Shown here: positions 2,230 to 39,937 of the stretch, in pieces | How the letters are laid out: each line of letters begins with the position of its first letter | How positions within the stretch are numbered: position 1 is the first letter of the stretch | IMG/VR virus record: IMGVR_UViG_3300043449_000688 | Location: 1 to 39,937 of that record | Origin: a virus | Strand: one strand, 5' to 3' | DNA length: 39,937 nucleotides | Program-made: the position numbers and the translations under genes | Notes under the pieces: generated by a model | Seen by the model: the letters and a program-made list of their open reading frames with translations, nothing else | What the model was told of the DNA's origin: nothing | The model's database searches: none

Positions 2230-2428
2230 AACTGAAGTGCTGGTTGGTCTGGGGCTGTTCGTCGCCAGTGAATTGATCGGCATGAGCCGGTTGAAGTCCA
2301 ACAGCGTGCTGCAGCTGGTGTTGATGACAGCTCAACGGGCATTTCCGTATGAGCTGAAGCGCAAAGAGTTGGAGCAAGAGGCTGAAGCACCTGTGCGTCG
2401 CACGACCACCAGGCGTCGTCGTCAGTAA
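2219..2428 (+). CDS. Small membrane-associated protein with basic tail (alternative holin candidate)
   Basis: The GTG start at 2219 is chosen because CGGAGGA (2209-2215) lies directly upstream, a strong ribosome site; an upstream in-frame ATG at 2123 lacks one. This gives 69 aa. Residues ~5-21 (EVLVGLGLFVASELIGM) and ~29-40 (VLQLVLMTAQRA) are hydrophobic; the C-terminus is strongly basic (RRTTTRRRRQ). The LVGLGLFVxSExIGMxxLKSNSVLQL pattern recurs in marine cyanophages, from memory. A hydrophobic N-terminus with a charged tail is compatible with a holin. The stop overlaps the convergent lysin gene by 7 bases. Confidence 0.65.
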   Translation: MQAETEVLVGLGLFVASELIGMSRLKSNSVLQLVLMTAQRAFPYELKRKELEQEAEAPVRRTTTRRRRQ

Positions 2429-2991
2429 TCCCACCTGACACGTGGTTTGCCGGGCCTTATGCCTTGATGGATGAACCCCTTAGGGGCTCCATAGCCCAGG
2501 GAGTAAGGCCATTCCTTATCGGCCCACCTCTGGAGGGTGTAGACGGACACGCCGTCCAGGTACCAGTCGATGGCGCCCTTATCGGGAGCGTTGTACAGGT
2601 GTTCCGACTGGGATGAGCCACCTACGGAAAGGTTGATCGCTGGTGGGCGGTAGCCACTGGTGATGATGATCGGCTTCCTGAAGTAGTCGCGGGCCTTCTG
2701 GGCGAATTGGCAGAGGAACAGGGCCGTATTGCACTGGTACTGGTACTTGAAGCGCCGTGCTTCCGACTGCAGCGTCAGCTCCCCGTACGTGATGCTGGGC
2801 GTCAGCTTGTAGGAGAAGGGCGAGGAGGGCCTGAAAGGGTCCTGTGCGCCGCTGGAAGCCGCCCGATACAGCTCTGCGAAGTCAGAGAGCTGCTCGGGGG
2901 TCAACTGGCCTTGTAGGGCGTTCCAGGCGGCAATCTGATGAGGCAGTGCTTCGTAGTGCTTGGCCGCATCAGTGAGGCGGATGGTGCTCAT
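2422..2991 (-). CDS. Endolysin, peptidase M15 (D,D/L,D-carboxypeptidase-like) family
   Basis: 189 aa. The C-terminal half carries the M15 zinc-peptidase signature: GYRPP (113-117), S129-E130-H131, D142 in GAIDWY and H175 in FIHQG. These are the two His and one Asp zinc ligands plus the SxH context used by phage peptidoglycan endopeptidases and VanY-like enzymes. The N-terminal ~80 residues are an uncharacterised helical domain. Predicted role: cleave peptide cross-links for lysis, in place of the T7 amidase (gp3.5), which is absent. It starts at ATG 2991, overlapping the stop of the upstream minus-strand gene by ATGA, and is the last gene of the terminase unit. Confidence 0.85.
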   Translation of the reverse strand: MSTIRLTDAAKHYEALPHQIAAWNALQGQLTPEQLSDFAELYRAASSGAQDPFRPSSPFSYKLTPSITYGELTLQSEARRFKYQYQCNTALFLCQFAQKARDYFRKPIIITSGYRPPAINLSVGGSSQSEHLYNAPDKGAIDWYLDGVSVYTLQRWADKEWPYSLGYGAPKGFIHQGIRPGKPRVRWDY

Positions 2992-3236
2992 GGGGCAACA
3001 GCGGGGTCTTTAGGGAAGATTTGCGGCGTCGGCACCTCAAAGGGGAGCTGCTCCCAGACGTCGTGTTGCACAGCGACGTCCCAGGCCTGCTCTTCACTGA
3101 AGGCCATGACGATGGTCTGGAAGGATCCTTTCACCTTCTCGCCGCCGTACCCAACGAACATGCCAGGCAGGCGAATGACAAAGGCCCGTGGGCGCTTGGG
3201 TTTAGGTGCGAGCTGTGGTGATCCAGGATCCGCCAT
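2988..3236 (-). CDS. Hypothetical protein between terminase and endolysin
   Basis: 82 aa from ATG 3236 (MADPGSPQL); a longer reading from 3296 would run deep inside the terminase gene and is less likely. Overlaps terL by 35 bases and the endolysin by 4. Pro-rich, with a central RAFVIRLPGMFVGYGG stretch and no clear transmembrane helix. In T7 this location relative to terminase holds spanin genes (18.5/18.7), but I see no lipobox or signal anchor, so function is unknown. Confidence 0.65.
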   Translation of the reverse strand: MADPGSPQLAPKPKRPRAFVIRLPGMFVGYGGEKVKGSFQTIVMAFSEEQAWDVAVQHDVWEQLPFEVPTPQIFPKDPAVAP

Positions 3237-4935
3237 CTTTCTTTGGAAGATCCGCAAGGCTGAACCCAAGAAAGCGAGCATCGACGGCACCTTCAAGTTC
3301 TCCGCGGTGTGCCGCCAGTTCTAGGTCCCACAGCTCCAGCTTTCTTTCCTTCATCGCCCGGTCTTCATCAACTGCAAGGCTCTCGTTCCAGTACTGGATG
3401 GCACCAGCCAAGGCATCAAGGCGGTCATCGTGCTGCAGGCAGCCCTTATCGACGGTGATGTGGGTGAGCTGGTGGAACAGCTGGTAGGCCAGGCGCTTCT
3501 CAATGGCGTCGTCATCCCGCCCTTTGCAGTCGTTCTCCACCACAGAGCGGTTGACGACCAGGCGGTGTTGGTTGAGGACCGGCTCCATCGCATTGATGAT
3601 CCGCCGTTCCTTCTGCACGTTGCTGCGCACCGGCTCGATGGTGCATGGGTGATGCAGTTGCAGGTGTGGCTTGAGGAGGTTCTCCAGCATCCCTTGGCCG
3701 AACTGGTCCTCCAAGAGGATCAAGTTGACTTTGTGGCGCTTGGCGGCCTGTGCCATGGCGACCAGGACGTCATCGGTGTAGCCATCACGGAAGGCACCGA
3801 CGTCGAGGACATACAGGTTGCCGTTCAGGTGGGCGACGATGGCGTATGCGGTCTCGTCTTGGCCGCGGCCTGAGGGGTCAATGAACATGACGCAGCCCTG
3901 GAAGGGCAACCACTCGCCGTGGATGTACGCAGGGCGGTGGTAGTAGTCACCTGTGAAGCCAACAGCTGGCAGATCAGCGATGCGGTACTCGGCACCAGAG
4001 GACCACACGAGCTTCTCGGGGGCGTGATCTGACACCTCCAGCACCATGAGGTCCGCCAGCTTGAGTGGGAACCGCTCCAGGTCCGACAGGGTGGTGTCGA
4101 GTTGGAACTGCAACGCAAACGCTGACCGCCCGTAGGAGGTCTCCCGCTCCAGCAGGTCCAGCTCAGAGAAGCGATCAGGGTCTGTGGGCTTGTTGACCAG
4201 CTCCTTGGGTGGAGACACCAGGCATGGCGCCAGGTTTTCGCCGTACTTCTCTGGCTTGACGGGGTACCGGGATGGCCAGATGCGGGTGAGAAAACCCCGT
4301 GGGGCCAGCTTGGTGTAGATCGACTCCTCCGACTGGGGTGTGCCGAGGTACACGATGCGGCCATTGGGCTTGAGGATGGCGTTGAACTCACCCACTGCTG
4401 CCAGCAGCTTCTCCCGCATCCCCACCGACCAGCTGGTGGTGGGTGTTTCGACGTCGTCCGCAAGGATCAGGTCAGCCCGGGAGCCTGTCAGCTGACCAAA
4501 GATGCCCACGGACTTCACCGATGGGCTCTGGTCGGGTTGTGCAGGCCGTACATCGAAGCGGTTGGATGCTGCCCGTTGCTCATCCCGATCAGGGTCCAGG
4601 CATTGAAGGATGGGCATCTCACGGATCAACCGGAGACAGAACTGCGCAAAGTCATCAGCCCGGGTCTTAGAGGCTGACACCACCATGATCTTGAGCTGTG
4701 GGTCGTTCCGCAGTAGCCACAGCACATAAGCGGCACTGATCCAGGACTTACCCACACCCCGGAAGGCTTGGATGATGGTTCGATTGCCCCCGCCTTGGAG
4801 GTACTGGGCAATGTCCAGCTGGATGGGAGTGGGGTCCGGCAGGCTCAGGTGCCGCCAGACGACCACCAGGAAGTACTTGAAGTCTGAGGCGAAGGGCTCA
4901 GGAAGCTGATGGAAGGCAGTCCTGGCCCTTGCCAT
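3202..4935 (-). CDS. terL: Terminase large subunit (T7 gp19-like)
   Basis: 577 aa, near the 586 aa of T7 gp19. An N-terminal ATPase with Walker A AFRGVGKSW (57-65, Lys63) and Walker B LILADD (156-161) is followed by an RNase H-like nuclease domain with FIDPSGRGQDET, LLEDQFGQG and DRLDAL, supplying the metal-binding acids. It translocates DNA into the prohead and cuts concatemers. ATG 4935 overlaps the terS stop (TGATG on the minus strand). Unlike T7, this gene runs opposite to the virion genes. Confidence 0.96.
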   Translation of the reverse strand: MARARTAFHQLPEPFASDFKYFLVVVWRHLSLPDPTPIQLDIAQYLQGGGNRTIIQAFRGVGKSWISAAYVLWLLRNDPQLKIMVVSASKTRADDFAQFCLRLIREMPILQCLDPDRDEQRAASNRFDVRPAQPDQSPSVKSVGIFGQLTGSRADLILADDVETPTTSWSVGMREKLLAAVGEFNAILKPNGRIVYLGTPQSEESIYTKLAPRGFLTRIWPSRYPVKPEKYGENLAPCLVSPPKELVNKPTDPDRFSELDLLERETSYGRSAFALQFQLDTTLSDLERFPLKLADLMVLEVSDHAPEKLVWSSGAEYRIADLPAVGFTGDYYHRPAYIHGEWLPFQGCVMFIDPSGRGQDETAYAIVAHLNGNLYVLDVGAFRDGYTDDVLVAMAQAAKRHKVNLILLEDQFGQGMLENLLKPHLQLHHPCTIEPVRSNVQKERRIINAMEPVLNQHRLVVNRSVVENDCKGRDDDAIEKRLAYQLFHQLTHITVDKGCLQHDDRLDALAGAIQYWNESLAVDEDRAMKERKLELWDLELAAHRGELEGAVDARFLGFSLADLPKKDGGSWITTART

Positions 4936-5177
4936 CAGGCAGCCCTACGGGGCTTCATCTGGACCACCTTCTCCAGGTCCGGCAAAGACGACACCAGGTC
5001 CCCAAATGGTGTGGCTTCCACTGGCTGGGCACTGATGCCGTTGGACTTCAGGAACCGCTCCAGCACCGACAGCTCACTGCTGCTGATGGTCCCTTCATCC
5101 AGCTTGATCTTCAGGTGCTGAGCCAGCCCTGCATGGAGATCAGCGAGGAGCTTGTTGGGATCGTCTTTACGGGCCAT
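4935..5177 (-). CDS. terS: Terminase small subunit (T7 gp18-like)
   Basis: 80 aa (T7 gp18 is 89). The start ATG at 5177 is fixed by AGGAGGG a few bases upstream on the minus strand; the in-frame extension to 5261 is a spurious Gly/Cys-rich run. The helical region NKLLADLHAGLAQHLKIKL then SSSELSVLERFLKSNG has the pattern seen in cyanopodovirus small terminases. It is the first gene of the minus-strand unit terS-terL-unknown-endolysin and faces a large gene-free region that must hold its promoter. Confidence 0.85.
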   Translation of the reverse strand: MARKDDPNKLLADLHAGLAQHLKIKLDEGTISSSELSVLERFLKSNGISAQPVEATPFGDLVSSLPDLEKVVQMKPRRAA

Positions 5178-5352
5178 GGACCCTCCTCGTTGGAAATGGT
5201 TGGGGGAGAGAGCCTGTGGTCTTATCCCTCCCCCGCAGCACCCACCACAGGCACCAGACACACCATAGCGGTACGACGTCCCCCCAGGTCAACAAGGGCC
5301 CTAGGGACACCAGTACGCACGTACCAAGCAATAGTAGATAAAGAACTTATCT

Positions 5353-8731: not shown

Positions 8732-9017
8732 CACCCAAGTGATGGCGACGCTGCGCAATGAGCTGCTCAACGCCATGTATGCCACCTTCCCCAGGCCGTT
8801 GGACAAGCGGACATTGGGAGAGGAGTGTCGGACTCGGTTCCTGACACGGGATAAGCAGTGGTACACCGACGCCCTCAACGAACAAGTGAAGGTGCTGGAG
8901 TACTCGGGCCTGGTCCGCCCGTCCAATGGGGGCTACACCCTCACGGAACGGGGACGCATGGACAGGCAACAGGCTGCCCGCTTCTTCCCTGTCACCACAC
9001 CACCCGATGCGGCATGA
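8724..9017 (+). CDS. Early winged-helix-like protein
   Basis: 97 aa from ATG 8724, which shares the ATGACTGA junction of the upstream gene (an alternative ATG lies at 8718). NEQVKVLEYSGLVRP followed by GGYTLTERGRM is the recognition helix and wing pattern of a winged-helix fold, as in small DNA-binding regulators. A role in early transcription control is plausible but unproven. Overlaps the next gene by ATGA. Confidence 0.6.
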   Translation: MTDTQVMATLRNELLNAMYATFPRPLDKRTLGEECRTRFLTRDKQWYTDALNEQVKVLEYSGLVRPSNGGYTLTERGRMDRQQAARFFPVTTPPDAA

Positions 9018-9301
9018 CCACTGACACCAACGCCATGCTGGCCGAGAGAGGCCAGCGATACGGTGACTTCATGGGCCATGCCCAGGTCACCATGAGTCTG
9101 AAGCTGGCCATCCGCAGCCATGTGTACAGCAAAGACATCAAGATGCAGCCCGACCAATGGGAAGCACTGGACATGATCTGCCACAAGATTGGTCGGATCG
9201 TGAACGGTGACCCCAACTACGTGGACAGCTGGCAAGACATTGCTGGCTACGCATCCCTGGTTTCCAACCGCTTGAGTGGCAATGACCTCCCCTTCGGATG
9301 A
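9014..9301 (+). CDS. DUF6378-like conserved phage protein
   Basis: 95 aa from ATG 9014. ERGQRYGDFMGHAQ, then WEALDMICHKIGRIVNGDPN and DSWQDIAGYASLV match a conserved all-helical family found in many phages (I recall DUF6378). The HxKIxRI and DxxxDIAGY pattern resembles MazG-like/NTP pyrophosphohydrolase helices, so nucleotide-pool control is possible but unproven. Member of the overlapping early chain. Confidence 0.8.
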   Translation: MTTDTNAMLAERGQRYGDFMGHAQVTMSLKLAIRSHVYSKDIKMQPDQWEALDMICHKIGRIVNGDPNYVDSWQDIAGYASLVSNRLSGNDLPFG

Positions 9302-10322: not shown

Positions 10323-11408
10323 ATGAAGGGGAAAGCCAGAGACGGGATACGCCAGCGTGGCAACAGCTACCTGGTTGACGTCACCGTCCAAGGTGAGCGA
10401 CGTACTGCCACCTACCAGAGCTACGAAGAAGCGGTCATCGGACGGCTGCAGCTGGAAGCTGAGCTGCGTGGTGCGGTGATCAAGCGGGAGGTGGCAGCAA
10501 CCACCGCCAGCTGGACCATGAAGAAGGCGTACGACACCACGCTGGAGATGCGGTGGCGTGACACCAAGAACGAAGTGAAGGCAGCCCGTAATGCACGGGA
10601 CGCTGTGTCGTTCTTCGGCAACGACCGACCCATGGATTCCATTCGGATGGCTGACGTGGATGAGTACGTCAAGCACCTGCGCAAGAAGAGCAACAGCCCG
10701 GGCACCATCAACCGCAAGCTGGCCAGCCTGTCGGCCATGTTCACCGATGCCGAGGAGCGGGGTGGCTGCATCAAGAAGCCACGGCTGATCCGCCAACCGG
10801 AGCCCACGCATCGCATCCGGTACCTGTCGCCAGAAGAGGAGCAGCTACTGGCCAGCTTGATGATTCAGTGGAATCAACCGGCTGTGCTGGAAGCCATCAC
10901 CGTGCTGCTCGATACGGGCATGAGGGTGGGCGAGCTGCTCAACCTGCAGATCAAGGACATCGACCTGCGGGAGAACATCATCTCCATCTGGCAGAACAAG
11001 GGTGACCTGCCCCGCTCTGTGCCCATGACCCATCGGGTGCGGGAGATCATCGCTGGTCGGTGTGCTGCCAGCCGCGGCCTGGTTTTCTACAACCTGACCC
11101 GTGAAACCTTGCGGTACTACTGGGATCGGGCACGGTCAGCCATGGGCCTGGACGATGACGACCAGTTTGTGCCTCATGCCCTGCGCCACACCTGCGCCAC
11201 CCGGTTGGTGCAGTCAGGCGTCAGCCTGTACGTGGTGCAGAAGATCCTTGGTCACAGCTCCATCCAAGTCACAGAGAAGTACGCACACCTGTCCCAGCGC
11301 GAGCTGAAGGATGCCATCAAGGTGCTGCAAGGGACCGTCATCCCCGCCCTGCAACCTGTTGCGAAGCCCGCAACATTTGTTGCCGAGGCGATGGCAGCCC
11401 ATCGCTAA
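10323..11408 (+). CDS. int: Tyrosine recombinase / phage integrase
   Basis: 361 aa from ATG 10323, 12 bases after ACCCACCAC (10302-10310). An N-terminal arm-binding region, a SAM-like core-binding domain (about 55-140), and the catalytic domain with R201 (TGMRVGELL), H285 and R288 (HALRHTCATRL), H311 (LGHSSIQV) and the nucleophile Y320 (EKYAHLS). All core catalytic residues I could check are present, so it looks active. It is directly followed by a tRNA-derived segment, the expected attP. Cyanopodoviruses such as P-SSP7 carry an integrase in the same place before the RNA polymerase. Confidence 0.95.
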   Translation: MKGKARDGIRQRGNSYLVDVTVQGERRTATYQSYEEAVIGRLQLEAELRGAVIKREVAATTASWTMKKAYDTTLEMRWRDTKNEVKAARNARDAVSFFGNDRPMDSIRMADVDEYVKHLRKKSNSPGTINRKLASLSAMFTDAEERGGCIKKPRLIRQPEPTHRIRYLSPEEEQLLASLMIQWNQPAVLEAITVLLDTGMRVGELLNLQIKDIDLRENIISIWQNKGDLPRSVPMTHRVREIIAGRCAASRGLVFYNLTRETLRYYWDRARSAMGLDDDDQFVPHALRHTCATRLVQSGVSLYVVQKILGHSSIQVTEKYAHLSQRELKDAIKVLQGTVIPALQPVAKPATFVAEAMAAHR

Positions 11409-11410
11409 GT

Positions 11411-11510
11411 CATTGATTCTGGTGGGCCCCCCGGGAGTCGAACCCGGCACCAACGGATTATGAGACCCGGGCTCCACCAGGTCAGTGCTTGCCATGCAAC
11501 CCATTGATTC
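11411..11510. repeat. 9-bp direct repeats flanking the attP-like segment
   Basis: CATTGATTC occurs at 11411-11419 and again at 11502-11510, bracketing the tRNA-derived core. Such repeats can be integrase arm-type sites. Nine bases is short enough to be chance. Confidence 0.4.
11420..11464 (-). other. attP: Putative attP: 3' half of tRNA-Met(CAU)
   Basis: On the minus strand the segment reads as a tRNA 3' half: anticodon loop CTCATAA (CAU anticodon, 11458-11464), TCCGT, variable loop, T-arm CCGGG-TTCGACT-CCCGG, GGGGCCC, discriminator A and encoded CCA (11420-11422). The 5' side does not complete the anticodon stem and no 5' acceptor strand is present, so it is not a whole tRNA. A D-arm-like GGTGGAGC just beyond (about 11471-11478) may be chance or a longer match. 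A tRNA 3' half beside an integrase is the standard attP layout; integration would restore the host tRNA gene. Confidence 0.8.
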
Positions 11511-11519
11511 CCCACGCAA

Positions 11520-13958
11520 ATGTCTGGCCCATCGGGCGCAATCCCCGCGTCCCCTTCTCCACCTTGTTGCCGAACGGAGGACGATCAGCTCGCCCTGGAG
11601 CAGGAGATGCTGCAGCTGGGGGCGGATCGTATCAGCCTGCTCACCAACCGCCGCCGCCTGTTGCGCATGGAGTCCCTGTCCAACTACGGGCAGAGCCTCA
11701 CCGTTGCAGGCATCGACCAGGTGATTGACGTCCTGCGCTATCACCGTCGTCAGATCAGAGATGGGGGAGCAGGCCCCCGCTACGCCCACCTGCAGCCCCT
11801 GCTTCAGCTGGCCCCGCACAAGGTGGCTGCTGTCGCCTTGCGGGTGATCGTTGACTCCATCACCCAGGTCAGCAAGCAGCACGCCCTTGCCTACGAGGTG
11901 GCGGACAAGCTGTGGATGGAGACCATGCTGGCCCGGGCCACCATGTGGGAGCGGAAGAACCACAAGCAGCGCCGGATGCGGTTGAAGTGCAAGACCGCCG
12001 ACATCCTGCGCATGAAGAACACCATCATCTGGACCCCGCAGGAGCGGCTGAGTGTTGGTGTCTTCCTGATCCAGCTCATTGCCCAATACACCGGGCTGAT
12101 CGCTGTCACCTTGGAGCAGAGCGCCTGTCGCAAGGTGCGCAGGGTGCGAGCCACTGATGCCTGCATCGCCTGGATCCGGGAGATGGAGGAGCAGGACAAG
12201 ATGCTCTGCCCCTTCACCCTGCCAATGGTGATACCGCCGCGGCCATGGGAAGGGGTGATGGAAGGTGGCTACCTCAATGCCATGCACATCAACCCCACCT
12301 TGATGAAGGAGGACCCGGAGCTGGTGGCCGCCAAGGTCACAGGCACTGAGCCCTTCATCCAAGCTGCCAACCACCAGCAGTCAGTGCCGTACCGGGTGAA
12401 TGGCTGGGTGCTGGAGCAGCTGCAGCTGGCATGGGACAAGGGCCTGGAGATCGGATCACTCATGCCACGTGAAGGGTGGGAGGTGCCGCCCTACCCCAAG
12501 CACCTGCCTGATGACCACCCCGACGTGACGCAGTGGAAGTTCAACGCACGCCAGATCCATGACCGCAACGACAAGACCAGGAACAAGCGCATCGCTACAG
12601 CCAAGCTGCTGTGGGTGGCACGGCGGATGGAGAGCGAGCCATCCATCTGGTTCCCCATGCAGCTGGACTTCAGGGGTAGGTATTACTACCGGCCTGGGTT
12701 CCTCAACCCACAAGGCAGCGACATGGCCAGGGCCCTGCTGCTGTTCGCCAATGGCACGCCCATCACCACCGACGAGGAGGCCAACTGGCTGCGCATCCAT
12801 GGCGCCAACTGCTACGGGTACAGCAAGACCAGCTGGCAAGCACGGCTGGACTGGGTGCATGAACACCAGCTAGAGATCGAGGCGACAGGTCGTGATCCCT
12901 GGCGGACGGTTGAGTTCTGGTCCAGGGCTGACGACCCGTGGCAGTTCCTTTCTTTCTGTCGCACGTACCAGGAGTTCAGCCACCAGGGCTACGGCTACAT
13001 CTGCCACCTGCCTGTCGTCCTGGACTGCACCTGCTCTGGCATCCAGCACTACGCCGCACTGCTCCGCTCTGAGGAGATGGCGCAGCTGGTGAACCTACTC
13101 CCGTCAGAGCAACCGCAGGACATCTACACCGTGGTGCTGAACCGGGTGCTGGCCCAGGTGCGCAAGGACGCAGAGGATGGCGACCCTCATGCCACCAGCT
13201 GGTTGCAGCTGCAGCCTGATCGCTCACTGCTCAAGCCCGTGGTGATGACCACGCCGTACTCAGCCACACGTCGGGCGATCTTTGGGTTCTGCCAGAGCTG
13301 GGCCTTTGATCGCACGGTTGAGCTGTACGGCATGGATGGCTGGTGCTTCAAGAAGGGAGCAATGGCAGCCATGCACTACATGACCACCATCGTCTGTCGA
13401 GAGACGGCGGAGGTGATCGGCCCAGCCAAGAAGGCGATGCACTGGCTGAAGCAGGTGGGTCGGCTGGCTGGTGAGCACGACATCGAGCTGTCGTGGACTG
13501 CGCCGTCAGGGCTACCGGTTCACCAGAGGTACATGGACTACCGAGGCGTGCGCATCAAGCTGCATCACCTGTCCCCGGTGTCGATGGACCTGCTGTCCAA
13601 CCACATCCCCGATGGGCTCAGCCCCAAGCGGATGGGCAATGGGCTCAGCCCCAATGTCATCCATTCACTGGACGCCAGTCACATGGCGTTGTCCACCATC
13701 GACGCCTTCAGCAATGGCGTACACAACCTGGGAGGAATCCATGATTGCTTCAGCACGACCCCCGCCGAGATGGCACAGGTGCGCAACTCAGTGCGCAATG
13801 CCTTTGCTGCCATGTACCAGCACGACTGGTTCTCCACCATCACTGGTGAACTTCTGCGACAGATCCCCCTGGATCTTCAGCACAAGCTTGCCCCTGTTCC
13901 CAAACTATCCCGGCTGGACGTCACCACTGTTCAGCACGCTGACTACTTCATCACATGA
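11520..13958 (+). CDS. T7-type single-subunit DNA-dependent RNA polymerase
   Basis: 812 aa (T7 gp1 883). The catalytic set is intact: D502 in VLDCTCSGIQHY (T7 D537), R568 and K572 in RSLLKPVVMT (T7 R627, K631), Y580 in TTPYS (T7 Y639) and D742 in GIHDCFST (T7 D812). The QLALEQE near residue 25 aligns with T7 LAREQLALEHE, so the N-terminal domain is short but complete. ATG 11520 has no Shine-Dalgarno; an internal ATG at 11607 behind a GGAG is a less likely alternative because it would cut into the conserved start. It transcribes the replication and virion genes. It follows the attP, as in other cyanopodoviruses. Confidence 0.96.
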   Translation: MSGPSGAIPASPSPPCCRTEDDQLALEQEMLQLGADRISLLTNRRRLLRMESLSNYGQSLTVAGIDQVIDVLRYHRRQIRDGGAGPRYAHLQPLLQLAPHKVAAVALRVIVDSITQVSKQHALAYEVADKLWMETMLARATMWERKNHKQRRMRLKCKTADILRMKNTIIWTPQERLSVGVFLIQLIAQYTGLIAVTLEQSACRKVRRVRATDACIAWIREMEEQDKMLCPFTLPMVIPPRPWEGVMEGGYLNAMHINPTLMKEDPELVAAKVTGTEPFIQAANHQQSVPYRVNGWVLEQLQLAWDKGLEIGSLMPREGWEVPPYPKHLPDDHPDVTQWKFNARQIHDRNDKTRNKRIATAKLLWVARRMESEPSIWFPMQLDFRGRYYYRPGFLNPQGSDMARALLLFANGTPITTDEEANWLRIHGANCYGYSKTSWQARLDWVHEHQLEIEATGRDPWRTVEFWSRADDPWQFLSFCRTYQEFSHQGYGYICHLPVVLDCTCSGIQHYAALLRSEEMAQLVNLLPSEQPQDIYTVVLNRVLAQVRKDAEDGDPHATSWLQLQPDRSLLKPVVMTTPYSATRRAIFGFCQSWAFDRTVELYGMDGWCFKKGAMAAMHYMTTIVCRETAEVIGPAKKAMHWLKQVGRLAGEHDIELSWTAPSGLPVHQRYMDYRGVRIKLHHLSPVSMDLLSNHIPDGLSPKRMGNGLSPNVIHSLDASHMALSTIDAFSNGVHNLGGIHDCFSTTPAEMAQVRNSVRNAFAAMYQHDWFSTITGELLRQIPLDLQHKLAPVPKLSRLDVTTVQHADYFIT

Positions 13959-14587
13959 GCAACTACAACCTGATCGACAAGATCCGCCTGACCACCCCGA
14001 CCTGCAAGTTCCAGTACCCCAAGCTCATCGAGCCTGAGACCAAGTTCAACCCTGAAGGTGCCTACAAGATCACCTGCCTGATCGACCCCAGCGATGCCGA
14101 CCCCGTGGCCACCGCCTTGGATCAGCTGCTGGAGAAGCACAAGGAATCCCTTAAGGCCCAAGCCCCATCCCAGAAGTTCAAGCTGGCTGACCTGCCCTGG
14201 GCTTTTGAGGAGATCGACGGCACGCCTTACTTCGTCGTGAAGGCGAAGATGAAAGCCAAAGGCATCGACCGTGATGGCCGTGCCTGGACCAGTGCACCTG
14301 CCCTGTTCGATGCCAAGGGCCGGGCAGTCAAGGACCGTGACTCCCTCAAGGGAATGTGGAACGGCACCGTCGGCAAGGTGTCCTTTGAAGCCTGCCCCTT
14401 CTATCAAGCTGCCATTGGTGCTGGCATTACCCTGCGCCTCAAGGCCGTCCAGGTGATCAGCCTGGTTGAGAGTGGTGGCAGCGCAGAGAGCTACGGCTTC
14501 GGAGAAGAGGACGGCTGGTCGCCCAGCCAGGAGGCGGCGGTCCCGTTCGATGCCAGTGGCACCGGACTTGAGGATGCCGACTTCTAG
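13955..14587 (+). CDS. Single-stranded DNA-binding protein (T7 gp2.5-like)
   Basis: 210 aa (T7 gp2.5 232). Overlaps the RNA polymerase stop by ATGA. The OB-fold region begins KIRLTTPTCKFQYPKLIEPE, with PEGAYKITCLI as a core strand; the C-terminus is acidic and ends in Phe (GLEDADF), the hallmark tail by which gp2.5 contacts replisome partners. Protects ssDNA and coordinates primase-helicase. With no phage polymerase visible, its tail must meet host enzymes or the phage helicase only. Confidence 0.9.
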   Translation: MSNYNLIDKIRLTTPTCKFQYPKLIEPETKFNPEGAYKITCLIDPSDADPVATALDQLLEKHKESLKAQAPSQKFKLADLPWAFEEIDGTPYFVVKAKMKAKGIDRDGRAWTSAPALFDAKGRAVKDRDSLKGMWNGTVGKVSFEACPFYQAAIGAGITLRLKAVQVISLVESGGSAESYGFGEEDGWSPSQEAAVPFDASGTGLEDADF

Positions 14588-14957
14588 GTACCGCTCCAAG
14601 TTTGAAGCGGCAGTCGCTGCCTCATTAAACAAACGGGGCCTTCCCTTTAATTACGAAGGGCAGGCCCTGCCTTACAAGATCGAAGCTGTCTACACACCGG
14701 ACTTCATCCTGCCCAATGGGGTGATCGTGGAGACCAAGGGCCTGTTCGATTCCGACGACCGTCGCAAGATGGTTGCCGTGAAGGACCAGCACCCTCACCT
14801 TGACATCCGCCTTTGCTTCATGAAGGCAGACGTCAAGCTCTCACGTGCACCCCGTTCCCTCACGTATTGGCAGTGGGCGGAGCGGCAGGGCTTCCTCTGG
14901 TGTGAAGGCCACATACCCACCACCTGGTTCGATGCCATCCAAGTTCCTCAAGCATGA
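14574..14957 (+). CDS. Endonuclease I, Holliday-junction resolvase (T7 gp3-like)
   Basis: 127 aa from ATG 14574 (behind GAGG), overlapping the SSB gene by 14 bases; T7 gp3 is 149 aa. Motifs: SKFEAAVAASL (Glu of the active site), YTPDFILPNG (Asp) and VETKG (Glu and Lys), equivalent to T7 E20, D55, E65, K67. Resolves branched DNA before packaging and helps degrade host DNA. Overlaps the next gene by 26 bases. Confidence 0.92.
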   Translation: MPTSRYRSKFEAAVAASLNKRGLPFNYEGQALPYKIEAVYTPDFILPNGVIVETKGLFDSDDRRKMVAVKDQHPHLDIRLCFMKADVKLSRAPRSLTYWQWAERQGFLWCEGHIPTTWFDAIQVPQA

Positions 14958-16542
14958 GCCGTGTCCCGAGTGCGGGAGCAAGGACAACTTCGCCCGCTAC
15001 GACGACGGCCACGGTCACTGCTTTGGGTGCGGCCATCAAGATCAACCACCACGTGATGCACCACCCCCACGCATGGCACCACTGCCACCACCCAAGACAC
15101 CGCTGATTGAGTTCATCTCCATCAAGGCCCTGAACAAACGGGGCATCTCTGAGGAGACCTGCAAGCTGTTCAACTACGGCACGTCCACCATGCGCGGCCA
15201 ACCCGTGCAGGTGGCTGAGTACCGCAACCAGAAGGGTGACGTCGCTGCCCAGCACGTCCGCTTCCCGGACAAGAAGTTCAGCTGGACAGGGGATACATCC
15301 AACATGCAGCTATGGGGCCAGCACCTGTGGCGTCAACACCACGGCAGCGGCACCAACCTCTTTGTCACCGTGACAGAGGGAGAGATCGACTGCATGTCAG
15401 TCAGCCAGGCGCAAGGCAACAAGTACCCGGTGGTCTCCCTGCCCAACGGTGCCCAGTCCGCCAAGAAGTACCTGGCTGCCAATGCCACCTGGCTGTCGCA
15501 GTTCAGCCGCATCGTGCTGTGCTTCGACAACGATGAGCCTGGCCGCCAGGCTGCAGAAGAGGCGCTGACAATCCTGCCGCTGGGCAAGGTGGCCATCTGT
15601 CACCTGCCTCGTAAGGATGCCAACGAGATGCTGCAGGCAGGCGAAGGCCAGCAGCTGCGTGACCTGCTGTGGAAGGCCACCCCTTCCCGCCCGGATGGGA
15701 TCGTCAATGCCGCTGAGCTATGGGATGAACTCATCCGCCCTGGCGCTACGGCGGTGTGCTCCTACCCCTGGCCCCAGTTGGATCGCATGACCCATGGGTT
15801 CAGGAAGGGGGAGATGACGACGCTTGCTGCTGGCTCTGGCATCGGCAAGTCATCCATCTGCAGGCACATCGCCCATCACTTCCTGCGCAACGGGATGAAG
15901 GTGGGCTACATCGCCCTGGAGGAATCCATCCAGCGCACCATGCAAGGCATCGTGGGTCTGGAGCTGAGCAAGCCCATCCACCTGGACCCGGGCCTGGCCA
16001 CTGAGGCGGAGGTACGGCAAGGCTTTGACAAGGTGTTCGGCACCGGTCGCTGCCTGCTGTACGACCACTTCGGATCCATGGACCCGGACCACCTGATCAA
16101 CAAGATCCGGTACCTGGCTGATGGCGAAGGCGCTGACCTGGTGGTGCTGGACCACCTGACCATCGTGATCAGTGGGCTCACTGACCTGGATGAACGCCGT
16201 GCCATCGACGTCACCTGCACCAAGTTGCGCCAAGTCGTGGAGCAGACAGGTGTCGGCCTGATCCTGGTGTCCCATCTCAAGCGGCCAGAAGGCCGCGGCC
16301 ATGAGGAGGGGGCACAGACTTCCCTGTCCCAGCTGCGTGGCAGCCATGCCATTGCACAGCTGTCGGACATGGTGATCGGAGCGGAGCGCAACCAGCAAGG
16401 CGATCCCTCTGAACGCAACGAGTTGCAGCTGCGTGTTCTCAAGAACCGCTTCTCGGGTACCACCGGCCTGGTGGACAAGCTGCTTTACGACCAAGACACC
16501 GGGCGCCTTGTCGTCCCCATGTCCTCCTACTTCGGAACCTAA
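14932..16542 (+). CDS. DNA primase-helicase (T7 gp4-like)
   Basis: 536 aa from ATG 14932 (T7 gp4 566). N-terminal zinc ribbon C11, C14, C30, C33; Toprim primase motifs VTEGEIDCMS and LCFDNDEPGR; RecA-like helicase with Walker A GSGIGKS (301-307) and Walker B LVVLDHL; late motif LRGSHAIAQLSD. It unwinds the fork and makes primers. In T7 it works with gp5 polymerase, which is not encoded here. An upstream in-frame start (14845) is discarded because it lies deep in the gp3 gene. Confidence 0.95.
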   Translation: MPSKFLKHEPCPECGSKDNFARYDDGHGHCFGCGHQDQPPRDAPPPRMAPLPPPKTPLIEFISIKALNKRGISEETCKLFNYGTSTMRGQPVQVAEYRNQKGDVAAQHVRFPDKKFSWTGDTSNMQLWGQHLWRQHHGSGTNLFVTVTEGEIDCMSVSQAQGNKYPVVSLPNGAQSAKKYLAANATWLSQFSRIVLCFDNDEPGRQAAEEALTILPLGKVAICHLPRKDANEMLQAGEGQQLRDLLWKATPSRPDGIVNAAELWDELIRPGATAVCSYPWPQLDRMTHGFRKGEMTTLAAGSGIGKSSICRHIAHHFLRNGMKVGYIALEESIQRTMQGIVGLELSKPIHLDPGLATEAEVRQGFDKVFGTGRCLLYDHFGSMDPDHLINKIRYLADGEGADLVVLDHLTIVISGLTDLDERRAIDVTCTKLRQVVEQTGVGLILVSHLKRPEGRGHEEGAQTSLSQLRGSHAIAQLSDMVIGAERNQQGDPSERNELQLRVLKNRFSGTTGLVDKLLYDQDTGRLVVPMSSYFGT

Positions 16543-16748
16543 TGAACTGCCCCGCCTGTGGTCACGGCACCACCCGTGTGCTCAACACCCGCCACGACAC
16601 CGCTGAAAGCATCATCCGCCAACGCATCTGCCAAGGCTGCGCCCACTACTTCCACACCGTGGAGGTGGACCTGAAGCCTGGCTCTGTGTACTGGACCGGC
16701 AAGACCATGGCCCGGCATGACGGGGCCAAGCACATCAAGATCTCCTGA
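16542..16748 (+). CDS. NrdR-like zinc-ribbon protein
   Basis: 68 aa, coupled to gp4 by TAATG. Four-Cys ribbon C3, C6, C30, C33 with TTRVLNTRHD and IIRQRICQGCAHYFHTVE between and after, close to the N-terminal zinc domain of the ribonucleotide-reductase repressor NrdR but without its ATP-cone. It may be a DNA-binding regulator or accessory. No ribonucleotide reductase gene is present in the window, so it would have to act on the host's. Confidence 0.75.
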   Translation: MNCPACGHGTTRVLNTRHDTAESIIRQRICQGCAHYFHTVEVDLKPGSVYWTGKTMARHDGAKHIKIS

Positions 16749-17032
16749 TGGCTGACGAGCGCCCCTCCTATTGGTCCACCCCTGACCGCAAGACCAGCAT
16801 CACCGTCGTCCACTACAAGGACAGCAGTGCCACCGGCTTTGTGGTCTTCACTGAAGGCAAGACGGCACAGCTCTGTGCCACTGCCAACGAAGCAGCCAAG
16901 GCCATCAAGTGGCCAGGCAACCTGCCAACTGGGGCGGCTGCCCGAGAGTTCCTGGGCCACTGGGGCTACGTGCCACCGGCCAAGAAGCAGCCCACGCCTG
17001 AGCCCAACGACAACACCAAAACCATCATCTGA
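16748..17032 (+). CDS. Hypothetical protein in the replication block
   Basis: 94 aa, coupled by TGATG to the zinc-ribbon gene. Beta-rich middle (ITVVHYKDSSATGFVVF) and a disordered Pro/Lys tail (PPAKKQPTPEPNDNTK). It sits where T7-like phages carry gene 5 (DNA polymerase) between gp4 and gp6, but has no polymerase motif and is ten times too small. Function unknown. Confidence 0.7.
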   Translation: MADERPSYWSTPDRKTSITVVHYKDSSATGFVVFTEGKTAQLCATANEAAKAIKWPGNLPTGAAAREFLGHWGYVPPAKKQPTPEPNDNTKTII

Positions 17033-17035
17033 ACC

Positions 17036-17794
17036 ATGACACTGCTGATTGATGCTGACTGGCTGGTCCACTCCGCTTGCGCGGCGTGCGAGTGCGACAT
17101 CCGATGGGATGAATGGGTCAACACCCTGCACCTAGAGCAGTCCGACGTGAAGGACTTCGTCTCGATGCGGGTATCGCAATGGCGGGACCTGACCCGTGAT
17201 GACGAGGTGGTGATGTGCTTCTCCGACTACCCCACCTTCCGGCATGACATACACCAGGAGTACAAGGCCAACCGGATTGGCAAGCGCAAGCCCCTGGGCC
17301 TGCGAGACATTCGCAAATGGGTAGGCGAGAACTACGAGAGCAGGGTGTGCGCTGGCCTGGAGGCTGACGACACCATGGCCCTGCTGGCTACTGGTGGGAT
17401 GTACACCAACCCAATCATCGTCTCCATCGACAAGGACATGCGGACGGTCCCCTGCTCACTGCTGGCCGGGGATCAAGTGGAGACTGTCACCCTGCTGGAA
17501 GCCAACCGCACCTGGATGAAGCAGGCATTGACTGGTGACACGTCGGACAACTACCCCGGGATCAAAGGCGTGGGCCCGGTTAGCGCAGAGAAGATCCTGG
17601 GTCCGGCCAGCACCTTGCCGGAGATGTGGGAGACCGTGGTTGTTGCCTACCAAAAGGCGGGGCGAACCATGATGGATGCGCTCATGAACGCACGCATGGC
17701 CAGGATCCTGCGCCATGGCGACTATGACTTTCAGACTGGAGAGATCCAGTTGTGGGACCCCGACCGTGACCCTGCGATGAAGACCAATGGATGA
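17036..17794 (+). CDS. 5'-3' exonuclease (T7 gp6 / flap-nuclease family)
   Basis: 252 aa (T7 gp6 300). Metal-site acids appear in LLIDADWL, CFSDYPTFRHD, LEADDTMALLA and SIDKDMRT, and the helix-hairpin-helix motif in GDTSDNYPGIKGVGPVSA. Removes RNA primers and degrades host DNA to feed phage synthesis. Four bases after the preceding stop; overlaps the next gene by 8. Confidence 0.92.
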   Translation: MTLLIDADWLVHSACAACECDIRWDEWVNTLHLEQSDVKDFVSMRVSQWRDLTRDDEVVMCFSDYPTFRHDIHQEYKANRIGKRKPLGLRDIRKWVGENYESRVCAGLEADDTMALLATGGMYTNPIIVSIDKDMRTVPCSLLAGDQVETVTLLEANRTWMKQALTGDTSDNYPGIKGVGPVSAEKILGPASTLPEMWETVVVAYQKAGRTMMDALMNARMARILRHGDYDFQTGEIQLWDPDRDPAMKTNG

Positions 17795-17969
17795 CGACAC
17801 CCTCTGGCCCCCGATTGATGAGGCCCTGATCAAGAAACTGGATCAGACATTCCCGGACAAATGCCCGGACATCACTGACCGGAAGCGGGCAATCTGGATG
17901 AACGCTGGCGCCCGCAAAGTGGTCCGCATGTTGCAGGCCGTTTATCTTGAGCAGCAAGAGCTGGTCTGA
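17787..17969 (+). CDS. Conserved small protein between exonuclease and virion block
   Basis: 60 aa from ATG 17787. CPDITDRKRAIWMNAGARKVV followed by a VRMLQAVYLEQQ helix is the IWxxAGxRxVV pattern I remember in cyanopodovirus proteins at this exact position. Acidic N-terminus. Function unknown; its conserved position suggests a role at the switch from replication to morphogenesis. Confidence 0.7.
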   Translation: MDDDTLWPPIDEALIKKLDQTFPDKCPDITDRKRAIWMNAGARKVVRMLQAVYLEQQELV

Positions 17970-30254: not shown

Positions 30255-33200
30255 ATGCCCACTCAAGTCATCAAAGATCCCCAGACCGGTGAGGAGCGGA
30301 GGGTCTACGTGGCCCCCGCGGGCATGGGTCAACAACCCAAGGCTGCAGAGAGGCCCAAGGCGCAGCCCAAGCAGGACAACCCGCTGGTTGGCTTGATGAA
30401 CATGACACCCATCGGGTGGATGTCTCAGCTGACAGGCAACAGCATCGACAGCATTGGCACTGCAGTCTCCGAATACCAGAAGACAGGCGACCTGGGAAAG
30501 GCCATCAACAAAGGCCAGCAGCAATACGCCAAAGGATTGGAAGGGCCCGGTGTTGTCAAAGGGGTGACCCGCACCTTGGCCAACGCAGGGCGGAACATCC
30601 TGCAGGAAGCCAGCGACTTTGTGACAGCGGACCTACCCGCTGCCTTTGGCGACACGTCGATCAAGCCCACCACGGCGGAGAACCCAGACGCACCGTTCCT
30701 GGGGATCATGCCTGCCTTGCCAAAGGCCAAGAGCAGCGGCGCTGCTGAAGACCTGGCCACTGGCTTGGTGCAGGCAGGCATTGAGTGGCTCCCTGCTGCA
30801 CGTGTCGTAGGGCTTGCTGGCAAGGCCCTGAAGGTGCTGCCTGGTGCAGCCAAGGTGGGTCAAGGCATCAATGCAGTCCAGGCCGCCGCCAAGAACCCAG
30901 TCGCCAAGGCGCTGGTCAGCAACACGCTTTCAAAAGCTGCTGCCACGGGTGCCGTGGTGGACTTTGCGGGCTTCGACCAGCACGGTGGCCGCCTGACGGA
31001 TGCCATCGACAGAGCCACTCAAGGCACGCCATTCAACGCCCTGGCCATCGACTACCTGAAGTCCGACCCCAAAGACGTGGGAATGGAAGGCAGGCTGAAG
31101 AACGCCCTGGAGGGCGGCCTGTTTGGCACGGCCCTGGAAGGTGCACTGCGCACCATGCGCGTGGCCAGGAACTACAACTGGTGGCGCCGTGCCCCAGAAG
31201 CCGAGAAGCCTGCAGCTGCTGAAGGACTGCGCAAGGCGACGCAGGACCTGGAGATCGAAGTCGCCAGGCAGTCGTACACCATTCCCGATCCGTGGAATGA
31301 GGCCACGCTGCCTGCCGTCCCAGGCCAGCCACCTGCACCCCGGGACATGAGCCCCCCGGTCCTGTCGGATGTAGCTGAAGTCAACCCGCAGGAGATCGCT
31401 GTTGACCCACAGCGGTTCCAATTCAAGGCTGCAGGCCTGGTCACAAAGTCCGGCGCCAGCGGCTCCCTGTCGGGCTCCACCGGTTACAACCCGATGCTGG
31501 GTGGCGTCGTCAGCGTGTGGCGTGACCCTGCCGATGGCGTCACCTACGTGGTCAATGGCCACAACCGGCTGAAGCTGGCCAAGGAGAGCGACTACGACAA
31601 GCTCCTGGTCCGCTACATCGACGCACCCAACGCAGAGCAAGCACGGGCACTGGGGGCCCTGCAGAACATCGCAGAAGGCCAAGGCACCCCCGTGGATGCC
31701 GCCAAGTACATGCGGGACACCGGGGAGACCGCGGAGTCCATGGCAGGCAAAGGCGTCAACCTGAGCGGTCCGGTGATCGCCAAGGCCATCCCGCTGAGCC
31801 GCCTGCCGCAGAACCTGTTTGACAAGGTGGCTACCGGCCAGCTGGAGCTGAGCAAGGCCGTGGCCCTGGGCACTGAAGCCCTGGACCCACAGGTCATCAA
31901 CGACGTCGCCACGCAGGCAATCAAGCGCAAGTGGTCGGCGGAGAAGATCACCCAGGCCATGCAGGAGGCACGGTTTGCGCAGACGCAGACGCAAGGTGGT
32001 GACCTGCTGAGCCTGCTGGGTGATGAGTGGGCCAGCAAGACCAGCAACTTCAACCAGCTGCTGGACGTACGCACGGAGGCCTTCAAGTCACTGCGCGAAG
32101 AGATGGTTGCGCTGACGTCAGCAGCGCGGGAAGGCCGCCGGGGGATCCTGGAGTCTGCTGGCAACGTCATCGACGTCGAAGGCAGCCAGGTGGCACGTGG
32201 CCAGGCTGCACAAGCGGTTGAGGTGTTCAACCGGGTGACGGGCTACGTGGGCCCTGTGCGTGACCTGCTGAATGAAATGGCAGGGCAGGTCGGTGGCAAG
32301 CGCACGGCCAAGGCGGTGGTGGGCGAGAACCTGGACCGCTTGCGTCAAGCCATTGATGACGAGATCAATGGACCCGCCCTGCCCCTGGAGCAGGTCCCTG
32401 CACCTGCAGCTGTCGTTGATGCTCCTGCCCCTGAGCCGAGTGTCCCAAGTGCGGGAACTTCAGCGCCTGCTGCTCCTGCAGTAGAGGCTCCCGTTGCTCC
32501 TGCTGGCCCCACGGCTCAAGAGATCCAGGAGCTGGACACCGTGCTGTCGCGCTCCATGGCCAACCTGTCGCCACAGCAGCGGGTGCTGGTACGCAACCAG
32601 ATGCTGCAGCAGAAGTACGCCCCGCAGGTGGCCGAAACCGTTGAAGCCCCTCCTGCTCAGATGATGGCCGAGGAGCCCCCGACCCAAGCGGTGGATCAGG
32701 CTCCAGGCTCAGGCGATGAGCCTCCCATCCCTCCCACCCCACCGGTCGTCGTCGAGCCCCCGCCGATGGATGACGGATGGGCCCGTCAGCTGGTGGACCA
32801 GATGGCGCAGCAACGGCAGGCCCTGGAGGACGGCAGCGTCACCATGAATGACCTGCTGGAGAACAACGTCCAGAAGTTCCAGAGCCCCAGTGGCGCCACC
32901 GCCTACGTGCCTAGTGCACCCGTCAATGCCATCCAGGCATACCGGGCCTTCAGCGACGTGTTCACCCGGCCTGATGCCACTGGCATCCCGGTGATGAGCT
33001 TTGAGCGGGTGCAGGCTGACACCGAGACCTGGCTGGCCAAGAACAACTACGACGGTCAGGCAGTGCTGGACAACCTCAAGCAGCTCAGCGGGCCCCTGTC
33101 GAACTACCAGGACAACCTGGTCGCTTTGCGGGGAGCGCAGCTCTACACCGATCACGCCAACCTGCAGGCTGGTGTTGCCGCCAACAAGTGGCTGAACGCT

Positions 33201-38870: not shown

Positions 38871-39937
38871 ATGCCGCTTGATTTCCCCACCAGCCCATCA
38901 CTGAACCAGACGTACACCTTTGGTGGCCGCACCTGGAAATGGAATGGCACCGGCTGGCAGCTGGAGTCGCCACTGGTGACCACCGCTTCAATTCAAGATG
39001 CAGCGGTCACCACCGCCAAGATTGCGGACGGTGCAATCACCACCGCCAAGATCGCAAATGGCGCGGTAGCACCGGCTGACCTGAGCACAGGTGGGCCTAG
39101 CTGGGACACCAGCGGCAACCAGACCGTCACCGGCAACGTCACGCTGAGTGGTGCTGGCAAGTCATTCCGCGGGGACTTCAGCAACGCCACGGTGGCCAAC
39201 CGGGTGTGGTTCCAGTCCACCACCACCAATGACTTCACCGTGGTGGGTGCGCTGCCCAATGGCACCAGCACAGCGTCCGCCTTCATGGCGACCAACAACT
39301 CCACGCCTACCAACGCCAGCATCGGCTCTTTGATCGCCGGTAGCGCGTCGGTGATCCTGGAGTCCAGCAGGTTTGGGACCGGCACTTACCTGCCGTTGGC
39401 GTTTCAAACCGGTGGCAGCGAACGGGCCCGCATCGACACCTCCGGCAGGTTGCTGGTTGGTACGTCTACTGCTCGTAACAACTTCTTCAATGATGTCAAT
39501 AATACCCACAAATTACAAATTGAAGGCACAGATTACACCGCAGGCCTTTCGCTGATAAATAATAACACAAGCATATCCGATGGCACAAACGTAGTTATCT
39601 GCAAAAGTGCCGGGGCCAGTGTGGGGTCTAATGTATTAGTGAGAAGTGGGGAAACTCTTGGTGGAGTTGCTTTTTTAGGAAATGATGGGTCTGAGTTTGT
39701 AACAGCCGCTAGTATTAACGCTTCTATAGATGGCACCCCTGGCGCTAACGACATGCCGGGACGCCTGACCTTTAGCACCACCGCCGACGGATCGGCTACC
39801 CAGACCGAGCGGATGCGGATTGACAGTGCTGGCAGGTTGTTGGTTGGTACGTCTGCTACTCGTACCAACATGTATGGCGCATCGTACTCGCCAGCTTTTC
39901 AAGTAGAAACGGCAGGGACATTTACGGAGCGGACAGT
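38871..39937 (+). CDS. Second tail fibre, N-terminal part (3'-partial; continues at window start)
   Basis: ATG 38871 is preceded by CGGAGGA. Open to the window end (355 full codons); frame continues at base 180 via the 72-base match. N-terminus DFPTSPSLNQTYTFGGRTWK with WKWNGTGWQLE is a common cyanophage fibre attachment domain, followed by tandem TTAKIADGAI-type repeats and shaft repeats ERARIDTSGRLLVG and ERMRIDSAGRLLVG. Bases 39483-39720 are clearly AT-richer, with atypical codons (ATA, TTA), a sign of mosaic exchange in the receptor-binding part. Confidence 0.88.
   Translation, partial: MPLDFPTSPSLNQTYTFGGRTWKWNGTGWQLESPLVTTASIQDAAVTTAKIADGAITTAKIANGAVAPADLSTGGPSWDTSGNQTVTGNVTLSGAGKSFRGDFSNATVANRVWFQSTTTNDFTVVGALPNGTSTASAFMATNNSTPTNASIGSLIAGSASVILESSRFGTGTYLPLAFQTGGSERARIDTSGRLLVGTSTARNNFFNDVNNTHKLQIEGTDYTAGLSLINNNTSISDGTNVVICKSAGASVGSNVLVRSGETLGGVAFLGNDGSEFVTAASINASIDGTPGANDMPGRLTFSTTADGSATQTERMRIDSAGRLLVGTSATRTNMYGASYSPAFQVETAGTFTERT
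39372..39482 (+). repeat. Direct repeat, copy of 1-111
   Basis: Identical to the first 111 bases of the window, then diverges. Fibre repeat R1. Confidence 0.9.
39866..39937 (+). repeat. Direct repeat, copy of 108-179
   Basis: Identical to 108-179 for 72 bases up to the window edge; preceded by repeat R2 (GGCAGGTTGTTGGTTGGTAC), a diverged version of R1. Confidence 0.9.

Follow-up and report, generated by a model that had tools for sequence, protein, structure and literature searches.

A T7-like podovirus without a DNA polymerase gene, from a lineage that probably relies on a host polymerase

The viral record IMGVR_UViG_3300043449_000688 (39,937 nt, G+C 61%), analysed here along its whole length and referred to as the window, carries a T7-like replication module in which gene 5, the gene for the phage DNA polymerase, is missing. 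We consider it probable that the window represents an essentially complete, temperate-capable T7-like podovirus whose lineage lost gene 5 once and whose DNA is synthesized by a polymerase of the host. T7 provides the textbook minimal replisome, with the polymerase at its centre. In that system gp4 is responsible for priming and unwinding, and gp5, together with thioredoxin, for synthesis.

The gene 5 position and the completeness of the record

All genes of the module lie on the plus strand. A T7-type single-subunit RNA polymerase (RNAP; 11520..13958; PF00940, 1e-84; phrog_414, 7e-185) is followed by a gp2.5-type single-stranded DNA-binding protein (SSB; 13955..14587; phrog_112, 1.5e-28), which ends in ...LEDADF and thus keeps an acidic, Phe-ending tail, by a gp3-type endonuclease I (14466..14957; PF05367, 4.8e-34; probable true start at about 14574) and by a gp4-type primase-helicase (14845..16542; phrog_239, 4e-183; likely start ATG 14929), whose catalytic motifs are intact in the aligned representatives. 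A gp6-type 5′-3′ exonuclease (17036..17794; PF02739; phrog_107, 1.2e-62) and a 60-aa conserved phage protein that also occurs in polymerase-bearing phages (17787..17969; phrog_4970, 5.6e-8) complete the module. The slot between gp4 and the exonuclease (16543-17035) is occupied by a 68-aa zinc ribbon of NrdR type that lacks an ATP-cone (16542..16748; PF22811, 3.4e-12, matching the first 41 residues) and by a 94-aa orphan with no family match (16748..17032). A preliminary description of this DNA had reported SSB, gp3, gp4 and gp6 homologues with only these two small proteins in the slot; the four genes were re-derived and identified by profile, and the content of the slot was confirmed.

The same description held that no polymerase gene exists anywhere in the record, and six-frame profile searches of the whole record for family-A (PF00476) and family-B (PF00136) polymerases indeed found nothing. 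The polymerase-sized open reading frames (ORFs) with a protein-family match have other assignments, namely RNAP, integrase, terminase large subunit (TerL), portal, scaffold, capsid, tail tubes, internal virion proteins, a tail fibre with the T7 N-terminal domain and an appendage protein. A split or frameshifted gene 5 was ruled out by profile searches and by tblastn with both halves of the split polymerase of P-SSP7.

That the window had been presented as essentially a whole genome is borne out by its termini. The last 72 bases (39866-39937) are exactly bases 108-179, and bases 1-111 are exactly 39372-39482. This overlap is supplied by the appendage gene, the 5′ part of which (38871..39937, plus strand) runs on at bases 180-1122 once the ends are joined, giving a continuous open frame of 669 aa. 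Because the gene is repetitive, the precise overlap length is uncertain. Internal repeats run through both of its parts (38871-39937 and 1-1122), and a 387-bp stretch of the end copy is absent from the start copy, which suggests a variable repeat number. The exact overlaps indicate that the genome closes, with some ambiguity within the repeated tail-fibre region, and nothing points to a gap large enough for gene 5. Relatives that are near-complete at 38-40 kb show equal content and layout, again without polymerase, and together with the overlaps they rule out an incomplete contig.

It could still be supposed that a phage polymerase is present but has diverged beyond recognition, or that the part of the genome coding for it is missing from the record, given that a functional assignment is lacking for some of the small ORFs and virion ORFs and that the contig ends fall in the repeated tail-fibre region. 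We regard this as very improbable: the sufficiently large ORFs can be assigned to RNAP, integrase, helicase, terminase or virion families, the identical search detects PF00476 in 21/21 control records from neighbouring polymerase-bearing lineages, the ends overlap exactly, and the 38-40 kb relatives share the polymerase-free layout. The gp4 C-terminus considered below is also easier to reconcile with a genuine loss of long standing than with a gap in the assembly or an unrecognized enzyme of gp5 type.

The position of the zinc ribbon and the 94-aa protein, both small and exactly where gene 5 would be, had led to the proposal that they are adaptors bringing the host polymerase to gp4. The wider survey speaks so strongly against this that we consider it extremely improbable. 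The slot is shorter than 60 bp in 115/175 polymerase-less loci, both MPP-C isolates and all 80 MPP-C-type loci included, and proteins missing from a near-empty slot in most relatives cannot be general polymerase adaptors. The 73 high-G+C slots examined usually contain the zinc ribbon; thyX is also present in nine, the 94-aa protein in eight, and 13 hold nothing. The 94-aa protein is confined to a few close relatives (four loci in one homologue survey, 8/73 slots in the slot tally). In the slot of locus L030 (7815-9160) and in eight other relatives, an NrdR-type ribbon lies beside an apparent thyX (flavin-dependent thymidylate synthase, named by eye), an arrangement fitting deoxynucleoside triphosphate (dNTP) supply; one thyX-carrying relative has in addition an HNH endonuclease in this slot, likewise named by eye and not by profile. 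A regulatory or dNTP-supply role is the better guess for the zinc ribbon, and we infer that the slot genes are accessory genes of nucleotide metabolism or regulation rather than polymerase adaptors.

A single polymerase-less lineage and its gp4 C-terminus

At least hundreds of related contigs were found among the matches listed. PF00476 was detected in 0/52 records comprising 50 close relatives and the two MPP-C isolates, and in 0/28 P-SCSP2-type records. Polymerase-less loci have -165 to 1341 bp between gp4 and the exonuclease and polymerase-bearing loci 1822-3709 bp, and in 82/83 of the latter the polymerase is located in that slot. In a gp4 tree built with the last 25 residues left out, all polymerase-less phages fall into a single clade (support 1.0, stem 0.51), within which the window belongs to a clade sister to the MPP-C isolates (support 0.956 for the isolates, 0.975 for the window group). 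One polymerase-less clade implies one evolutionary event, that is, a single loss of gene 5 in a monophyletic lineage that then diversified without it. No candidate for a clade-wide replacement of gene 5 appeared, and the core replication genes shared by the clade (RNAP, SSB, gp4, exonuclease) also occur in polymerase-bearing relatives. One 60-kb IMG/VR record in this material (L013 / G009, L337-L339) turned out to be chimeric, made up of two different T7-like phages, which ruled it out as a phage with host flanks.

In T7, the acidic C-terminal tail of gp4 and its terminal Phe are required for binding gp5 (PMC12230644; PMC12593628). Of the distinct gp4 C-termini, 94/98 from polymerase-bearing loci end in Phe and 0/54 from polymerase-less loci, the latter set representing 175 loci; loci L423-L449 were omitted from these counts. 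Mean net acidity of the last 15 residues is 3.5 with polymerase and -0.1 without, and the polymerase-less proteins have short endings such as VPMSSYFGT or VYENTFGDL. The gp4 of the window, ending in ...GRLVVPMSSYFGT, likewise has no acidic tail with a final Phe. For SSB, a Phe-ending tail is kept in 84/88 polymerase-bearing and 70/70 polymerase-less cases. Loss of the gp4 docking tail fits a real, old loss of the polymerase; the gp4 C-terminus is not mentioned in the MPP-C paper (PMC9860041), and within the literature searched the observation is new.

Several considerations weigh against the picture of a lineage that gave up its polymerase together with the means of docking it. The raw Fisher test of gp4 tail against polymerase (P = 7e-37) ignores phylogeny and so overstates the evidence. 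Polymerase loss and tail loss each occurred once, on the same stem, so that the link rests on one event, and no independent second loss of the polymerase by which it could be tested was seen among the lineages sampled. In each of the 49 distinct gp4 tails listed for polymerase-less phages, a Phe is still present among the final six residues, so that the gp4 end may have kept some docking role. The SSB tail is retained in both phage sets and not specifically in the polymerase-less one. A very divergent phage polymerase is still conceivable. Finally, use of a host polymerase by this phage, although very probable, is read from the absence of a gene.

Recruitment of the host polymerase, which follows from the absence of gene 5, was already proposed for MPP-C phages (PMC9860041) and was also put forward in the preliminary description; the present analysis upholds it. 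Replication would start as in T7, with transcription by the phage RNAP. Unwinding and priming would be carried out by gp4, with SSB coating the DNA and gp6 and gp3 processing it, while chain synthesis would fall to a host polymerase. Under this scheme gp4 would no longer tether the polymerase in the manner of T7, and the host enzyme would come in some other way, possibly through the SSB tail or at an uncoupled fork. We favour the DNA polymerase III (Pol III) holoenzyme over DNA polymerase I (Pol I) as that enzyme, giving Pol III about even odds overall. The grounds are that Pol III is the processive replicase, that the type of docking now lost is one that Pol I could be expected to require, and that bacterial replicase subunits are known to be attracted by SSB-type tails. 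Pol I, recruited as the replicative polymerase and docked by gp4 or SSB, belongs to the same family A as the lost enzyme, was named first by the MPP-C authors (PMC9860041) and could act with the retained gp6-type exonuclease. Nevertheless, it seems unlikely, though worth keeping in view: the gp4 tail that docks a family-A polymerase is lost, Pol I is mainly a repair enzyme of low processivity, and no clade-wide candidate for a processivity factor was seen. A new route of coupling between gp4 and the host replicase, perhaps through the conserved short [Y/F]FG-type gp4 terminus or through the SSB tail, and general enough to serve in two phyla (Prochlorococcus and Burkholderiales), is a tentative suggestion that we think somewhat more apt to fail than to hold.

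The attachment site and the probable host

The window encodes a tyrosine integrase (10323..11408, plus strand; PF00589, 7e-32), and a 45-nt attP core (11420..11464, minus strand) is situated between the integrase and RNAP genes; the phage is temperate-capable. The core is identical at 45/45 positions to the 3′ segment, CCA included, of tRNA-Met(CAU) of Burkholderiales. The identity holds for tRNA-Met in several genomes of this one order, among whose members is a Burkholderia (16S 99.7% to B. pyrrocinia), and the first genome with an exact match has a 16S 89.9% identical to Burkholderia. With two mismatches or fewer, the core was found in 35/300 genomes of the order vs 3/398 evenly drawn Pseudomonadota. 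Intact matching sites were called tRNA-Met by ARAGORN, and in a Bordetella avium prophage the same kind of site adjoins the integrase. Among relatives of the window, the core is unchanged in L012 and L013, and L005 and L006 differ from it at two bases in a way that preserves T-stem pairing, as expected for a site that tracks the host tRNA. Because of the 45/45 match, a betaproteobacterial (Burkholderiales) host appears likelier than a cyanobacterium; within the literature searched, this probable host is a new observation. In one genome (G455, contig C2, 502282-511107) the tRNA-Met core occurs twice, in exact copies 8.8 kb apart of which only one is a whole tRNA, and the pair looks like a small integrated element at the same attachment site.

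Two points tell against a betaproteobacterial host. A scan of 84,980 genomes with gp4 revealed only distant relatives (<=46%) and no lysogen whose gp4 is close, and the tRNA-Met comparison covered Pseudomonadota, with cyanobacterial tRNA-Met genes outside it. The latter leaves some room for a picocyanobacterial host like those of the MPP-C relatives, with the Burkholderiales match a coincidence, as does the fact that TerL, the major capsid protein (MCP) and RNAP are closest to those of a Prochlorococcus phage. We nonetheless judge this improbable in view of the 45/45 identity, the concentration of near matches in one order, the compensated T-stem variant and the G+C content of the window, which is 61% vs 34-39% in MPP-C isolates.

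Other genes of the window and comparison with known systems

TerL (3202..4935, minus strand; phrog_38, 2e-114) belongs to a minus-strand block (2422-5261) of endolysin, TerL and the terminase small subunit that is opposed to the rest of the genome; TerL is likewise on the minus strand in P-SCSP1u. An early-region protein of 147 aa (8858-9301, plus strand) matches phrog_17775 (9e-26) and a phrog named phosphofructokinase, and a 1876-aa internal virion protein (30255-35885, plus strand) has a weak match to a ParB-type helix-turn-helix (PF17762) and a stretch matching phrog_21. None of psbA, hli, mazG, rnr, talC and thyX was seen among the scanned window ORFs, some small ORFs lying outside the scan. 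With its single-subunit RNAP and its T7-type portal, scaffold, capsid, tail tubes and terminase, the window has the features of T7-like podoviruses (Autographiviridae in the broad sense), among which a family-A polymerase of their own, absent here, is usual but not universal.

The polymerase-less trait itself is already known from MPP-C, described as an abundant marine lineage without polymerase for which no molecular trace of altered replication was offered (PMC9860041). Loss of the docking tail, placed on the same branch, supplies a trace of this kind, and what had been an absence becomes an altered interface that can be tested. If the hosts of the large high-G+C sister group are indeed betaproteobacteria, which are much easier to work with experimentally, the trait is not a cyanophage peculiarity.

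The nearest isolates to the window are the MPP-C P-SCSP1 phages, so the suggestion that the window is a member or relative of the polymerase-lacking cyanopodoviruses stands as to relationship; membership among cyanophages is not supported, given the Burkholderiales-type attP from a comparison that covered Pseudomonadota. Like the window, the P-SCSP1 group lacks gene 5, has a gp4 without the acidic Phe-ending tail and carries TerL on the minus strand (PMC9860041), and identities to the window are 73-74% for TerL (74% for the nearest isolates), 75% for MCP, 58% for gp4 and 51% for RNAP. P-SCSP1 differs in its host, Prochlorococcus, in size and G+C (37.8 kb and 38.7% vs 39.9 kb and 61%) and in lacking the integrase with Burkholderiales-type attP and the slot with zinc ribbon and 94-aa protein. 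The window shares with MPP-C the absence of an identifiable DNA polymerase, while its size (39,937 bp with overlapping ends) is outside the MPP-C range of 37.3-37.9 kb. P-SCSP2 also has no gene 5, an integrase before RNAP and a gp4 without the acidic Phe-ending tail, yet is only 27-54% identical to the window over nine core proteins, compared with 40-75% between P-SCSP1 and the window and 25-52% between P-SCSP1 and P-SCSP2; the RNAP of P-SCSP1 is 51% identical to that of the window vs 25% to that of P-SCSP2. By these identities the MPP-C isolates may form a natural group only when the high-G+C phages are counted in, though the gp4 tree joins the isolates (0.956). In CRP-125 (Roseobacter), HTVC120P (Pelagibacter), Pasto (Rhizobium) and P-SSP7, the order RNAP-SSB-endonuclease-gp4-...-exonuclease is that of the window, but gene 5 lies between gp4 and the exonuclease and gp4 has an extended tail with a terminal Phe. 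Coliphage T7, finally, shares with the window homologues of gp1, gp2.5, gp3, gp4 and gp6, and differs in needing gp5 with thioredoxin, docked by the gp4 tail (PMC12593628).

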